Origin: Candidatus Dadabacteria bacterium | GTDB taxonomy: Bacteria; Desulfobacterota_D; UBA1144; Nemesobacterales; JADFKM01 | Length of the DNA: 32,496 nucleotides | Reading direction: 5' to 3' | Assembly (NCBI GenBank): GCA_022564935.1 | Contig: JADFKM010000019.1 | Span: 1 to 32,496, forward strand | Shown: piece after piece, positions 17,660 to 32,384 of the stretch | Layout: the number at the start of each line of letters is the position of its first letter | Position numbering within the stretch: position 1 is the first letter of the stretch | Notes under the pieces: generated by a model | Told to the model about the DNA's origin: nothing | The model's input: the letters and a program-made list of their open reading frames with translations, nothing else | Database searches by the model: none | Position numbers and translations under genes: made by a program

Positions 17660-18861
17660 ATGCACAAAATGCGAATATCGATTGTCGACGACGACGAGGA
17701 TGAGTGTCTTGTACTTAAAAGAGCACTCCATCTTTGGGGCCATGAAGTCGTATCAGCCCCCGATGGAATCGAAGCGCTGGAAATTTTGCAAAAGGAGCCG
17801 ATCAATTTCGTAATAAGCGACTGGATGATGCCAAGGATGGATGAGCTCAATCTGTGTAATAAAATAAGAAACGGCAATTTCAACAGATACATCTACACCA
17901 TTTTACTCACCGCAAACAATCAAAAAAATCAGCTCATTATAGGGAATGGAGGCCGGAGCGGACGATTTCATCGGAAAACCGTTCGACAAGGAAGAATTAA
18001 AAGTGAGGATAAGGGCAGGGGAAAGGATTTTGCAGCTTGAGCACTACCTGAGGAAAGAAACAACAAGCTTGCCGAGGCATATGAGATTATCAGAACCGAC
18101 ATCGATGCCGCAGCGAAATTGCAGAAAAGCCTCCTGCCGGGCTCCTCGGCAATGATATTCGACCTGAAGTTCCAATCCATTTTCCACCCCTCAAGCTTCC
18201 TGGAAGGGGATATATTCAACTTCTTTATGCTGGACGAACACCATGTGGGTTTCTATTTGCTTGATGTGGCGGGCCACGGCATACCGTTTGCAATGCTGTC
18301 GTTCACGATAAGTAAAACCCTCTCCCCCAATCTGTACAACAGCTCATTATGGAAACAAGAAAACCCCGACGACCCCTGTACATCTCAAATCGGCTCTCCA
18401 CGGCTGATCATAGACGAACTCAACACAAGCTTTATCAGCAAAAAGACGACGCCATGCAATATTTCACCATGGTTTAGGGGATTATTGACGCCCTTAATGG
18501 GAAGGCAAAGATAGCACAGGCAGGACACCCGAGCCCGATATGCAATAAATTCACAGGAGAAATTCATATAATAGGACGGGGAGGCTTCCCGATAGGCATG
18601 TTCCCTGATGCCGAGTACGAGGAAATCGAGTTATCTTTTGACAAAGGAGATAGGTTGCTTTTGTACTCAGACGGAATTACCGAGTGCCTTAACGATGCAG
18701 GCGAGTCATTTACCGACAGGAGACTTATAGAGATAATCCGGAATCTGCAAAATCAACCCCTTGAGCAGCTGATAAACGATATAGAACACAAGCTCTCTAT
18801 GTGGAACGGAGGCCTGGCTTTTAAAGACGACATATCGCTTCTAGCAATTGAGAAGATTTAG
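17660..18861 (+). pseudogene. Response regulator fused to SpoIIE/RsbU-type PP2C phosphatase, broken by three frameshifts and a stop
   Basis: The reconstructed protein has an N-terminal receiver domain (ISIVDDDEDE, phosphoacceptor Asp54 in SDWMMP, KPFDKEEL), a short helical linker (DIDAAAKLQKSLLPG) and a SpoIIE-type phosphatase domain (GDIFNFFMLD, DVAGHGIPFAML, KDDISLLAI). Such proteins dephosphorylate STAS anti-sigma antagonists on receipt of a signal. The frame changes three times: an extra base near 17942-17946 before MEAGADD, a missing A near 18060 (AAAGAAACAAC), and a missing A in the run near 18440. A TAG at 18475-18477 then replaces what should be a Tyr codon. Longest intact piece: receiver, 17660 to about 17940. 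The intact STAS gene downstream is its expected substrate. As given, the sequence cannot make the phosphatase, unless errors in the assembly explain all four lesions. Confidence 0.85.
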
Positions 18862-27196: not shown

Positions 27197-28480
27197 TCAT
27201 TCCAGCGCCTTCTTCATCACATCAAGCGTGCTGGAAATCTCGCTCTCGGTGTGGGAGAGAGAAACGAACACGGATTCAAACTGCGAAGGGGGAAACATAA
27301 TACCATTCTCCAAAAGCCTGCCGAAGAACCTGGAGAACAAATTCGTGTCTGAGTTAAGGGCGGCATCGTAGTCCACAACGCTCCTATCGGTGAAAAAAAG
27401 CGTGAACATAGACCCAACGCGGTTAACCGTCGCACTTACTCCCGCGCTCTTTATAATGTCTCTCAACCCATCTACAAGCTGCGAGGCCAGGTCTTCAAGC
27501 TTTTCGTAGCTGCCCGGATTGTGGAGCTTTCTAAGCGTTGCAATTCCAGCGGCCATAGCTAGCGGGTTGCCCGAAAGGGTACCGGCCTGGTACATGGGCC
27601 CGGCAGGGGCGACCATGCTCATAATTTCACGGCTCGCTCCGTAGGCCCCGACAGGAAGCCCGCCGCCTATAATCTTTCCAAGGCAGGTTATGTCGGGGGC
27701 TACCCCGTAAAGCTCCTGTGCACCACCGGGGCTCAACCTGAAGCCCGTTATAACCTCGTCAAAGACCAGTAGGGCACCGGAGCTTCGCGTTATATCCCTC
27801 AAGCCTCGAAGGAAGCCGTCTGTAGGAGCGACGACACCCATGTTGCCCGCAACGGGCTCAAGGATAACGCACGCTATTTTCTCGCCCAGCTCATCGAAGA
27901 GTTTCTCCACAGAGCCCAAATCGTTGTACTTTGCAAGGAGTGTGCAGTCGGCAAACACCTTCGGCACTCCCGGGCTGCTTGGTTGGCCGAAGGTCGTGGC
28001 CCCCGAGCCCGCCTTTACGAGTAGGTAATCTGCGTGGCCGTGGTAGCACCCCTCGAACTTCACTATCAGGTCTCGGTCTGTGCAGGCGCGGGCAAGCCTC
28101 ACGGCACTCATGGTAGCCTCCGTGCCCGAGCTCGTCATCCTCACCACATCCACCGACGGGAAAGCCTCGGTCACAATGGTGGCAAGCTCAACCTCCGCTT
28201 CACAGGGCGCCCCGTAGCTTGTGCCCCTAGCGACGGCTTTTCTCACGGCATCGACCACTTCGGGGTCGGCGTGTCCCAGTATAAGGGGCCCCCAAGAGGC
28301 CATGTAATCAATGTAGGCGTTCCCGTCCACATCCCAGACCCGTGATCCCTGCGCTCTGGAGATGAACACGGGGGTGCCTCCAACGGCGTTAAACGACCTG
28401 ACGGGGCTGTTAACGCCGCCGGGCATTAAACGCTCAGCAACCTTAAATAAATTCTCAGAGTTCTGATTTAACGAAGCCAT
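27197..28480 (-). CDS. hemL: Glutamate-1-semialdehyde 2,1-aminomutase
   Basis: This PLP enzyme converts glutamate-1-semialdehyde to 5-aminolevulinate, the tetrapyrrole precursor in the C5 pathway. The 427 residues match the family length. Landmarks are [13 protein letters not shown] at the N-terminus, [13 protein letters not shown] (gating/PLP region), [12 protein letters not shown], the PLP-ring Asp in [11 protein letters not shown], Lys269 in [12 protein letters not shown] as the Schiff-base lysine, and [14 protein letters not shown]. All look intact. There is no strong ribosome binding site. It is followed by the Fo operon. Its first ~70 codons are duplicated as a dead stub near 29640-29894. 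Confidence 0.97.
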
Positions 28481-28600
28481 ACACCATTTGAAAGCATTGC
28501 AGATAAAGGCGCGGAAAAAAGTCGCCTATATTAAACACTGTCTGAAAGCGATGTCAAGTTTAGGTAGGTATGCTGGACAGAACGCTTCGGTAAGTGAGCA

Positions 28601-28642
28601 AAAAGAGAGGGATAGAATACAATTTGAGCTTCCTATCCCTCT
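28601..28642 (-). terminator. Intrinsic terminator after the short ompA gene
   Basis: AGAGGGATAG (28606-28615) and CTATCCCTCT (28633-28642) form a perfect ten-base-pair stem around a 17-base loop. Read on the minus strand it is followed by CTTTTTG. It lies 86 bases past the ompA stop and separates that gene from hemL. A related hairpin occurs in the duplicate unit at 29981-30023. Confidence 0.72.
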
Positions 28643-28727
28643 AAATCTCTGAGAAGGATGGCACGACATCCTTCCTAGCCCTCTATAACTCATTCACACA
28701 CTAGTTGTTCTTTTTCGTCATAAGCCT

Positions 28728-29189
28728 CTAACCGGGCTGAAAGTGGGCACGTCTGTTAAGCCCTGGATCCTGTATTTTACGAAAATGAAACGTCCATCCT
28801 TTGTTGAACTGTGTGGTCTCTCCCTTGCCTACGGTCTTCATCCTGCTCGAATCTATTCCGAGGCGTACGAGATATTTTTTTGTGGCATTGGCCCTTCTCC
28901 GCGAGAGACTCAGGTTATATGCATTTGAACCTTTTATGTCTGCATAACCTTCAACTATTATCTTTTGTGAGGGGTAGTCCTTCAGTATCCGAGCATTCCT
29001 CTTCAGCACAGCTTTGGCATCGTCATTGATGCTGGTCTTATTGAAATCAAAGAAGACATCCCTTAGCATAAAGAGGTTAACAGCAAACCCCTGTTGTGAT
29101 GGCGGAGTAGCACAGCTTGAAAGAATAAACATTGCTACTACAACTACTCCGGGAAAAAGCAGAAAAGTTGACCCGTAATTTTTAAACAT
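28728..29189 (-). CDS. Short OmpA/Pal-family lipoprotein (duplicate copy A)
   Basis: This is a 153-residue lipoprotein with lipobox LSSC and a C-terminal OmpA-like peptidoglycan-binding domain (DVFFDFNKTSI, VEGYADIKGSNAYNLSLSRRRA, GKGETTQF, NRRAHF). It would anchor the outer membrane to peptidoglycan. Compared with its duplicate at 30099-30821 it lacks about 60 residues of the alanine-rich helical region between the lipobox and the OmpA domain. It also ends eight codons early, because the duplicate's Val codon (in PGVRL) is a TAG here; the old tail RLMTKKNN is still readable after the stop. The OmpA core residues survive, so the protein may still work. AGGAGG precedes the ATG with normal spacing. 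Confidence 0.85.
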   Translation of the reverse strand: MFKNYGSTFLLFPGVVVVAMFILSSCATPPSQQGFAVNLFMLRDVFFDFNKTSINDDAKAVLKRNARILKDYPSQKIIVEGYADIKGSNAYNLSLSRRRANATKKYLVRLGIDSSRMKTVGKGETTQFNKGWTFHFRKIQDPGLNRRAHFQPG

Positions 29190-29225
29190 CCCATCATACC
29201 TCCTTTAAGAGTATTTATTTCTATA

Positions 29226-29620
29226 TTAATGTTTTTGGCCCTCGAATGCAAGCTCTCTTAGCTTTTCTTTTACAAGTCTCGACCCTTCAGACTTAGAGTA
29301 TCAGTTAATGAGGGCCTGAAAGAACAGCTTATCTTCCTCCCGCCTGTTGATGATTATTAAAGAAAGGCCCTGTCTTAAGTACGCAGAGCGGCCCTTTTGC
29401 CCCTGGGATAGGTGGATTGAGGGTTTGATATTCAAGATTTGCTCTCTCATATTTTTTTCCTGCAAAAAACTCGCACACCCAAAATGGGGCATCAGGAGCC
29501 TGGGGGGGGAGGCGAACCGGCATTAACAAGTAAAAATTCTCTAAATGCTCCCGGGACTCAGGAGAGTTTCCCTTGGTAAATGCCCTGTACGCATCGGTGA
29601 ATACGTTTCTAGAGGCTCCG
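29226..29620 (-). pseudogene. cpoB (ybgF) 3'-half relic
   Basis: Joining frames gives SRNVFTDAYRAFTKGN, FWVCEFFAGKKYERA, NLEYQTLN, then LRQGLSLIIINRREEDKLFFQAL and finally SRLVKEKLRELAFEG. This matches the last ~135 residues of the intact CpoB-like protein at 30879-31631. It has at least two frameshifts and a stop (TAA/TGA after QALIN), a G8 tract at 29502-29509, and no start. The relic begins abruptly at the point matching about residue 125 of the intact gene, which marks the duplication junction. Confidence 0.85.
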
Positions 29621-29639
29621 GTCCGGGAGCTTGCGCTCC

Positions 29640-29894
29640 CTGGCTGCTATATATTCCTACAGGATACCCACGCCTTTGGGGCCTGCAGGTATAAGGGGGG
29701 GCACTTTATGGTCATGTAATCAAAGTATGCGCTCCCGTCCACGTCATAAACCGACTGCCCCTGAGCTTTGAAAACGAACACGGGGGTACTCACCACGGCG
29801 TTAAACGACCTCACCGGGCTGTTCACACCGCCCGGCATCAAGAGCGTTCCGCAGTGCTGTATAATTTCTCGGGGTCGTGACACAACGACCCAAT
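29640..29894 (-). pseudogene. hemL 5'-end relic
   Basis: The first ~70 codons of hemL are recognisable. The start codon ATG is now ATT (29894-29892), followed by [16 protein letters not shown], which matches [16 protein letters not shown] of the intact enzyme. A two-base insertion then shifts the frame to [16 protein letters not shown]...AYFDYM. Similarity ends near CCCCTTATAC, and the rest of hemL is absent. The PLP lysine region is not present, so no enzyme can be made. It marks the second copy of the tandem duplication. Confidence 0.88.
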
Positions 29895-29980
29895 GAAAGG
29901 CGCAGAAAGCCGCCTATATCAAATACTGCTTCAGGGCGCTGTCATGTCGGAAGTGTACGCTGAGGCCTTAATGGAAGTCG

Positions 29981-30023
29981 ATAAAGAAAGGGATAGGGCC
30001 CGGTATGAGCTCCTATTCCCTCT
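29981..30023 (-). terminator. Intrinsic terminator after ompA copy B
   Basis: CCTATTCCCT (30012-30021) pairs with AGGGATAGG (29989-29997), with one bulged base and a GC-rich loop. Read on the minus strand it ends in CCCTTTCTTTAT. It is the counterpart of the hairpin at 28601-28642, conserved in both duplicated units. Confidence 0.6.
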
Positions 30024-30098
30024 CGAATTCTAAAGAAACAAATAATTAAGGTTCTTCCCGGCTTCTTTCAACGGTTCGAAAGGGCTTTGATACGGGGA

Positions 30099-30821
30099 TT
30101 AATTGTTCTTTTTTATAATCAGCCTCACGCCCGGCAGCGTACCGGGTTTCATGGGCACAAAGTGCGCACGCCTGTTAAGCTGGTAGGCCTGTAGAGTTGT
30201 TCCTTCTCCGAACTTTGTGGTCTCCCCCTTGCTGAGGGCATCTATAATGCTTGAATCTATACCGAGGCTTACAAGATAATCCCTTGTGGCGTCGGCCCTT
30301 CTCTGCGCAAGTCTGAGGTTATATGCATCTGTACCCCTTATGTCTGCATAACCTTCAATTATCACTGTATATGAGGGGTTGTCTTTTAGCACCTGAGCGT
30401 TCTCCTCGAGAACCGGCACAGCATCAGTCCTGATGTAGGACTTGTCGAAATCAAAGAAGATATCTCTAAACTCAACGTCCTCTTCAACCACGACAACTTC
30501 TTCAGGGGGGGGTATTGCAGAGGTCATACACTTGAACTTAGCCTCATTCGCCTTTGTCTTGGCATCCACAAGCATCCTTCTCGCTTCGACCTCGTGGCAA
30601 AACTCCTCCATCAGCGCTTCGCCCTTTCTCAAAGCGCTCTCAGCCGCCGCTAACTCCTCGGCTCCACAATCGGGCGCACCTTCCGCTTTTGCTTCAGCTA
30701 CAGCCGCCTCTGCGTCATTCAGCTCCTGCGTCGGTGGGGAAGCCGCACAGCTAGAAAGAATAAAAATCGCTACAAGCACTGCAGGATAAACCAGAAAACT
30801 TAACCCATCATATTTAAACAT
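30099..30821 (-). CDS. OmpA/Pal-family lipoprotein (copy B)
   Basis: This 240-residue lipoprotein has lipobox LSSC near residue 25, then an alanine/glutamate-rich helical region (about 35-105, resembling the DUF4398-type helices found before OmpA domains), a short proline-rich linker (IPPPEEVVVV) and an OmpA-like domain (RDIFFDFDKSYI, IEGYADIRGTDAYNLRLAQRRA, NRRAHFVP). The acidic and arginine residues that bind diaminopimelate in Pal proteins are present. It probably helps tether the outer membrane to peptidoglycan. AGGAGG precedes the ATG by nine bases. It follows the CpoB-like gene and is likely in one operon with it and the upstream Pal-like gene. Confidence 0.93.
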   Translation of the reverse strand: MFKYDGLSFLVYPAVLVAIFILSSCAASPPTQELNDAEAAVAEAKAEGAPDCGAEELAAAESALRKGEALMEEFCHEVEARRMLVDAKTKANEAKFKCMTSAIPPPEEVVVVEEDVEFRDIFFDFDKSYIRTDAVPVLEENAQVLKDNPSYTVIIEGYADIRGTDAYNLRLAQRRADATRDYLVSLGIDSSIIDALSKGETTKFGEGTTLQAYQLNRRAHFVPMKPGTLPGVRLIIKKNN

Positions 30822-30878
30822 CCCATCATACCTCCTAAGATTATTTTTCTCTTTAAGAATACTTATCTTATATTAATA

Positions 30879-31631
30879 TCATCGGCTTTCTAATGCAAGC
30901 TCTCTGAGCTTTTCTTTAGCAAATCTCGAATCATCAGACTTAGGGTACCTGTCTATTAGGGTCTGAAGAAACAGCTTAGCCTCCTCTCTTCTGTTTATGT
31001 TTATCAAAGAAAGAGCCTGTTTTAAGTACGCATGAGGTACCCTTTGGTCGCGGGGATACGTGTCTATAAAGGTCTGATATTCCAGAATCGCTTCCTCGTA
31101 TTTTTTCCCCCTGTAAAAAGACTCACATATCCAGAACGCGGCGTCGGTAGCTTGTGGTGAATTGGGTTTATCCCTTAAAAACTCCTTAAACAGCTCCCTC
31201 GATTCGGGGTAATTCCCTTTGGTAAAAGCCCTGTAAGCATCGGTAAACACGTTTCGAGGAGGCTCCGGCCTGAGGTATGTCGAGCCCTGCCCGCCATACC
31301 TTTCAGAGGGGTACGTCGGCCGTACGGGCCCCCGGCGTTTCCTAAGCTCAAGCTTGCTTATTTTGGCGTTCAAACTTTGAAGTGTCCGCTCAAGTTTGTT
31401 CAGACGGACCTCCAACCTCTTAAGCTCATCTGTGCTCAGACCTCCGCCGCGAGTGTTGTTCAATATCCTATGTATGTTCTCTACGTCCCTGGACAAACGG
31501 TTCAGCTTCTCCTCGGTCCTCGCCTGACGTATGTACGCCCCCCTCATATCATCGCTTGTTGCCACGCACCCGAAAAGAGCGGTAACCGTCAATACAAACA
31601 CAATTCGGGTGGCGACAAAACCAATTCTCAA
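30879..31631 (-). CDS. CpoB (YbgF)-like cell-division coordinator
   Basis: The family sits in the periplasm, interacts with TolA and coordinates peptidoglycan synthesis with outer-membrane constriction. The 250-residue protein has a lipobox-like LFGC near residue 22 (many relatives have an ordinary signal peptide). A coiled coil follows at about 35-100 (LNRLSRDVENIHR, LNKLERTLQSLNAKI). Then come three TPR-like repeats: TDAYRAFTKGNYPESRELFKEF, ATDAAFWICESFYRGKKYEEAILEYQ and YLKQALSLININRREEAKLFLQTL. It lies between two OmpA/Pal genes on the same strand, matching the usual pal-cpoB order. Its 3' half is duplicated as a relic at 29226-29620. Confidence 0.9.
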   Translation of the reverse strand: MRIGFVATRIVFVLTVTALFGCVATSDDMRGAYIRQARTEEKLNRLSRDVENIHRILNNTRGGGLSTDELKRLEVRLNKLERTLQSLNAKISKLELRKRRGPVRPTYPSERYGGQGSTYLRPEPPRNVFTDAYRAFTKGNYPESRELFKEFLRDKPNSPQATDAAFWICESFYRGKKYEEAILEYQTFIDTYPRDQRVPHAYLKQALSLININRREEAKLFLQTLIDRYPKSDDSRFAKEKLRELALESR

Positions 31632-31652: not shown

Positions 31653-32384
31653 TTACTCTGCCGTAACGAAATGGGCTCTTCTATTCTCCTGAAATGAGCG
31701 CTCAGAAGCGCTGGCGGCAAACTTATCCGTCTCGCCCCTGCTGACCGCCGTGATTCGATCAAGAGATACCCCGAGCCCCACGAGATACGCCTTCACAGCA
31801 TCGGCTCTCTTCTGGCCGAGAGCCAGGTTGTATTCCTCGGTGCCGCGGGTATCGCAGTAGCCTTCAACCACTACCTGTCTTACCGAGGATTTACTAATAA
31901 TTTTGGAATTTTCTTGAAGTATCGTGCGCTCACCCGATCTAATGTTGAACTTATCGTAGTCGAAAAAGACGTCAAGGAGACCATGCCGACCCTCCCGGCG
32001 ACCTTTAAGTTTCCTGAGCTCCTCTTCCTTCATGCGCCTTTGGGCATCGGACATTTCCTGCTCCCTATGGGCAATCCACGACTTCCCTTTTGCCTGCGTG
32101 GCCAGGTGTCTGGCTTCTATAAGAAGCTCCCTTGCCTTGGGGTGATCGCCGCGGGACATCAGCAGCTTGGCTTTTTCAATGAGGGCTTCGGCCGCTTCAT
32201 ATTCCTCCTTGGCATATTGAAGCGCTCCGGCGTCCGCCGCCTCTTCCAGAGCCCTCTGGGCTTGATTAAGCTCGACGTCGGCGCTTTTACACCCAAATAC
32301 GACAATACCCACCGGCAAAACCAATAAAAGTATCACCAAGATTGCTCTTTTACTCATCTTACCTATTCTCCCGAGATTGTTCAT
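31653..32384 (-). CDS. Pal-like OmpA-domain lipoprotein with N-terminal DUF4398-like helices
   Basis: This 243-residue lipoprotein has lipobox VFGC near residue 32. A helical region follows (about 38-125, LNQAQRALEEAADAGA, AKELLIEARHLATQ-like), and then an OmpA-like domain (LDVFFDYDKFNI, VVEGYCDTRGTEEYNLALGQKRA, SRGETDKF, NRRAHFVTAE). These residues match Pal, which ties the outer membrane to peptidoglycan within the Tol-Pal system. The start at 32384 has AAGGGA upstream; an in-frame ATG at 32357 (MSKRAILV) is an equally likely start and gives a more normal signal peptide. The CpoB-like gene follows after 21 bases. By analogy tolB would be expected beyond the right edge. Confidence 0.92.
   Translation of the reverse strand: MNNLGRIGKMSKRAILVILLLVLPVGIVVFGCKSADVELNQAQRALEEAADAGALQYAKEEYEAAEALIEKAKLLMSRGDHPKARELLIEARHLATQAKGKSWIAHREQEMSDAQRRMKEEELRKLKGRREGRHGLLDVFFDYDKFNIRSGERTILQENSKIISKSSVRQVVVEGYCDTRGTEEYNLALGQKRADAVKAYLVGLGVSLDRITAVSRGETDKFAASASERSFQENRRAHFVTAE

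Follow-up and report, generated by a model that had tools for sequence, protein, structure and literature searches.

The window analyzed here is a 32,496-nt stretch of contig JADFKM010000019.1, taken at its full length from the draft genome of a Candidatus Dadabacteria bacterium (104 contigs, 88.6% complete). Toward its end lies a run of genes, all on the reverse strand, that begins in the direction of reading with a single-copy pal-like lipoprotein gene (31653 to 32384) coding for an OmpA domain (PF00691, 70.9 bits) and DUF4398 (PF14346). This is followed by a whole cpoB/ybgF gene (30879 to 31631; TIGR02795, 93.8 bits, above the cut-off of 90.1) and by ompA2 (30099 to 30821), which encodes a full-length OmpA lipoprotein of 240 aa with DUF4398 and OmpA domains. 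Next come a stub of hemL (29654 to 29881), a remnant of the 3' half of cpoB (29234 to 29651), a second, short OmpA lipoprotein gene of 153 codons, ompA1 (28728 to 29189; PF00691, 75.1 bits), and a whole hemL (27197 to 28480; TIGR00713, 625.5 bits against a cut-off of 527.3). The product of hemL, glutamate-1-semialdehyde aminomutase, functions in tetrapyrrole synthesis. Both ompA frames are open. An Rfam search of the whole window recovered no RNA family. Two further sets of frames in the window were noted by eye: a short one at 958 to 1344, similar to the N-terminal P-loop portion of RecF/AAA-type ATPases and breaking off at 128 aa, and a response-regulator-like frame of 126 aa that is followed within 17660 to 18514 by a second short frame of 131 aa, which may be its broken phosphatase part.

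Local alignment of the region 28240 to 29651 with the region 29654 to 31298 unified them over 1,312 aligned bases at 77% identity, on the same strand and in one order, with a score of 941.5 against 73.5 for the best of 20 shuffles. The homology is unbroken through the 5' end of hemL, the ompA-hemL spacer, ompA, its leader with the Shine-Dalgarno sequence, and the 3' half of cpoB, so that the diagonal expected by a previous sequence-only reading, which had proposed an old tandem duplication, indeed continues outside the ompA genes. Direct repeats D1 to D6 and D8 also pair the two units. One end of the alignment joins 28240 to 29654 inside hemL, and the other joins 29651 to 31298 inside cpoB; hence, the upstream copy consists of the 3' half of the whole cpoB (from about 31298 down), ompA2, the spacer, and the hemL stub, and the downstream copy consists of the cpoB remnant, ompA1, the spacer, and the 5' end of the whole hemL. 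The copies are thus adjacent, similarly oriented, and homologous in coding and noncoding parts alike, as in a tandem segmental duplication. They differ in size (about 1.64 and 1.41 kb, respectively), mainly because ompA1 has lost 231 nt in frame. Divergence at third codon positions is similar in the three gene pairs (0.35 for ompA, 0.44 for hemL, and 0.40 for cpoB), suggesting that the parts are of like age, as a single event predicts. The junction between the two gene fragments had been placed near 29620 to 29640; the ends of the two alignments bear out the neighborhood but put its best position at about 29650, blurred over 29624 to 29690. As the copies have diverged by 23%, any microhomology at the breakpoint is unreadable.

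Comparison with related genomes indicates the direction of the change. At 20 loci from relatives, the genes occur in the same order, pal-cpoB-ompA-hemL-atpI-atpX-atpB-atpE, each in a single copy, with pal, cpoB, or atp genes lost at a contig end or lying outside the fetched stretch in a few of them. No extra piece of ompA, hemL, or cpoB was found at these loci, and no second ompA1-like match at the locus (E ≤ 1e-28) was recovered in the other 42 genomes of the order that were examined. A scan of genome contigs found one locus from the same taxonomic order (L031, G013:C37), the other matches being distant OmpA proteins. The single unit in all sampled relatives identifies the tandem arrangement as derived, rather than as two units that arrived separately, and ompA2 is the copy that occupies the operon position seen in the relatives. 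Since the compared relatives share the order of the source but belong to other families, the duplication can be placed only on the branch leading to the source genome. In the phylogenetic tree, ompA1 and ompA2 are sisters (support of 96/93), and the ompA1 branch is four times as long as that of ompA2. Separately, in one relative (L071, G019:C3; 6257 to 6978), cpoB matches as two separate pieces (query residues 1 to 122 and 123 to 246), with the open frame of the best piece no longer than 127 aa; the gene may have been broken independently there, or the assembly may be in error.

The control elements of the locus were copied together with the genes. Across the order, a strong hairpin with a U-rich tail stands in the ompA-hemL spacer, followed by a sigma-70-like promoter. 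In the window, the terminator hairpin after ompA1 lies at 28606 to 28642 (fold z of −2.8, with no shuffle as stable), and the hemL promoter, TTGACA-16-TTTAAT, lies at 28530 to 28557, 49 nt before the ATG. A second prediction also finds this promoter, reading its second hexamer 2 nt later, and a by-eye count locates TTGACA at its place in 13 of the 20 relatives, mostly 30 to 40 nt before hemL (spacers L064 to L083). The corresponding elements of the upstream copy are a terminator-like hairpin after ompA2 with one bulged A in its stem (29986 to 30024; fold z of −3.0) and a weakened promoter copy, ATGACA-16-TTTGAT (29918 to 29945), which aligns to the hemL promoter. Since both the conserved terminator of ompA and the promoter of hemL lie within the copied segment, ompA1 comes after a terminator and behind the weakened promoter copy, with about 730 nt of hemL and cpoB debris in between. 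Accordingly, ompA1 has probably been severed from the pal operon and would be transcribed, if at all, from the weakened copy of the hemL promoter, in which case the debris would form a long leader of its transcript.

The ompA1 protein is a reduced version of its sister. The 231-nt in-frame deletion, which aligns as three pieces summing to that length, has removed DUF4398; an insertion of 15 nt adds 5 residues to the loop that leads into the final strand of the OmpA domain; and 21 nt are lost near the end. A premature TAG at 28728 to 28730 removes the conserved C-terminal tail, and the codons between it and the old stop are still in register. Retained are the Shine-Dalgarno sequence, the signal peptide with its lipobox, and the OmpA core, in which the Asp and Arg of the peptidoglycan-binding motif are kept at a spacing of 15. 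The OmpA domain scores above the gathering threshold, and the protein as a whole reaches the cut-off of no named NCBIfam equivalog. In a structural model, which was built from an alignment of only four sequences and so speaks to compatibility with the fold and not to function, the pLDDT of the OmpA core is mostly >80, the insertion forms a low-confidence loop, and Foldseek matches the model to Pal and OmpA C-terminal domains (best E = 1.5e-11). The product of ompA1 is probably a minimal OmpA lipoprotein that binds peptidoglycan and overlaps in part with ompA2 and Pal, and the gene is perhaps on its way out.

Survival of both ompA genes had been attributed to selection. A codon maximum-likelihood analysis of ompA alone was uninformative, as the synonymous changes of the sister branches were inseparable and omega ran to about 12; hence, one duplication age shared by ompA, hemL, and cpoB was fitted instead. 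In this joint fit, ompA2 has an omega of about 0.19 and is clearly under purifying selection. For ompA1, omega is 0.53 with all values free or 0.78 if that of the debris is set to 1; under the second setting, an omega of 1 for ompA1 costs only 1.4 in 2ΔlnL, so that neutrality is not rejected, and values of ≤0.3 are rejected. Left free, the debris itself takes an omega of 0.45, below which ompA1 does not clearly lie and which warns that omega comes out too low under this model. In two other tests, the debris of the same age served as a control. All four indels in ompA1 keep the frame, whereas all nine in the debris break it (Fisher P = 0.0014), and the Poisson probability of finding no frame-breaking indel in ompA1 is 0.0008. 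Moreover, with the number of amino acid changes fixed, the replacements in the core of ompA1 agree far better with the family profile than those of a neutral simulation (P = 0.0015), whereas the same simulation returns neutral-looking values for the debris of cpoB (P = 0.67) and hemL (P = 0.45). Across variants of the profile and the ancestor, ompA1 remains at P ≤ 0.0007 for the profile score and P ≤ 0.011 for invariant columns, and the cpoB debris stays neutral in all of them; the hemL debris departs weakly from neutrality when the ancestor is inferred without copy 1 (P = 0.047 and 0.017). The attribution to selection therefore holds for ompA2 and in part for ompA1, where frame retention and conservative replacements favor it but strong dN/dS support does not appear. 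Purifying selection on ompA1 is moderately supported by these sequence statistics, and a balanced reading is that the gene was maintained for much of its life under weakened constraint and is possibly now being lost.

The explanation that best accounts for the whole, to which we assign a probability of about 0.72, is a single tandem duplication after which ompA1, standing outside the pal operon, was kept open under relaxed selection. Over that time, the gene lost DUF4398 by in-frame deletion and its C-terminal tail through a nonsense change, yet it persisted as an open lipoprotein gene. That ompA1 is instead a dying pseudogene, formed by the same duplication but under no selection since and with its frame kept by luck, we regard as unlikely: the loss of the same two regions, the long branch, and an omega indistinguishable from 1 are what such a gene would display, but luck would have to account for the absence of frame-breaking indels next to debris of the same age in which every indel breaks the frame, for replacements much more conservative than neutral against that adjacent control, and for the preserved Asp and Arg at their spacing. 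A recruitment of ompA1 to a new role, as a minimal Pal-like lipoprotein lacking DUF4398 that is driven by the copied hemL promoter and evolves in an accelerated but constrained manner, appears to us rather improbable.

The tandem duplication also bears on the contrasting condition of hemL and cpoB in the two units, which had been read as reciprocal decay. A duplication of about 1.64 kb with its ends inside cpoB and hemL leaves cpoB whole and hemL truncated at its 3' end in the upstream copy, and cpoB truncated at its 5' end and hemL whole in the downstream copy. Thus, pal-cpoB-ompA-hemL became pal-cpoB-ompA2-[hemL'|cpoB']-ompA1-hemL, where the bracketed fragments meet at the junction; an intact copy of each gene survives at the outer edge, and the inner fragments were nonfunctional from birth and then drifted. 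As this geometry by itself gives the opposite states, later reciprocal loss is not needed, and the earlier reading is in this respect mostly a misreading: true later decay is limited to small-scale changes within each stub. In the hemL stub, these are the change of the start from ATG to ATT and the insertion of two bases, both present as had been described, in addition to the truncation at the junction; in the cpoB remnant, they are eight indels, none a multiple of 3, and an in-frame stop. Such point mutations and frameshifts might also be expected had whole operon units been duplicated, with both hemL and both cpoB genes once complete and lost reciprocally afterward. However, the homology of hemL and that of cpoB stop at the same junction with nothing between them and with no trace there of the rest of hemL, the 5' half of cpoB, pal, or the atp genes, and several later deletions would be required where one event suffices; we accordingly consider this course very improbable. 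It is harder still to credit an assembly artifact, in which two related strains were misjoined at one locus. Although the genome is a draft and the window one of its contigs, the two copies differ by 23%, the whole hemL and pal each stand in their usual place on the contig, and the fragments at the junction bear frameshifts, stop codons, and changes of a neutral pattern, which a random cut through two living genomes would not give. Finally, the idea that the extra ompA came in on its own by horizontal transfer, for which the presence of other OmpA paralogs in the order might be invoked, can practically be dismissed, as the flanks of ompA1 are homologous throughout to those of ompA2 and the two genes are sisters.

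Understood as one tandem duplication, the locus is a natural experiment, in which a single event left an open gene next to two dead fragments of the same age. The dead fragments calibrate neutral decay for ompA1 and form an unusually clean built-in control. The locus also illustrates how the end point of a duplication can place a gene behind the promoter of another gene.

With respect to known proteins, ompA1 resembles Pal, YiaD, and the C-terminal domain of OprF in its lipobox and OmpA C-like fold. Its Asp and Arg have the same spacing of 15 as Asp271 and Arg286 of the Acinetobacter baumannii OmpA, which form the diaminopimelate-binding pair of that protein (PMC5974059). It differs from other OmpA-family lipoproteins in lacking DUF4398, which its sister has, in lacking the C-terminal tail, and in the 5-residue loop insertion. 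With respect to known rearrangements, a search of the literature on bacterial tandem duplications found nothing specific, and the event is ordinary in kind. Like other bacterial tandem duplications with partial terminal genes, the present one has head-to-tail copies, a junction of two gene fragments, and intact genes at the outer edges. Tandem arrays usually collapse or decay sooner; the present array differs in being old, at 77% identity, yet still recognizable.
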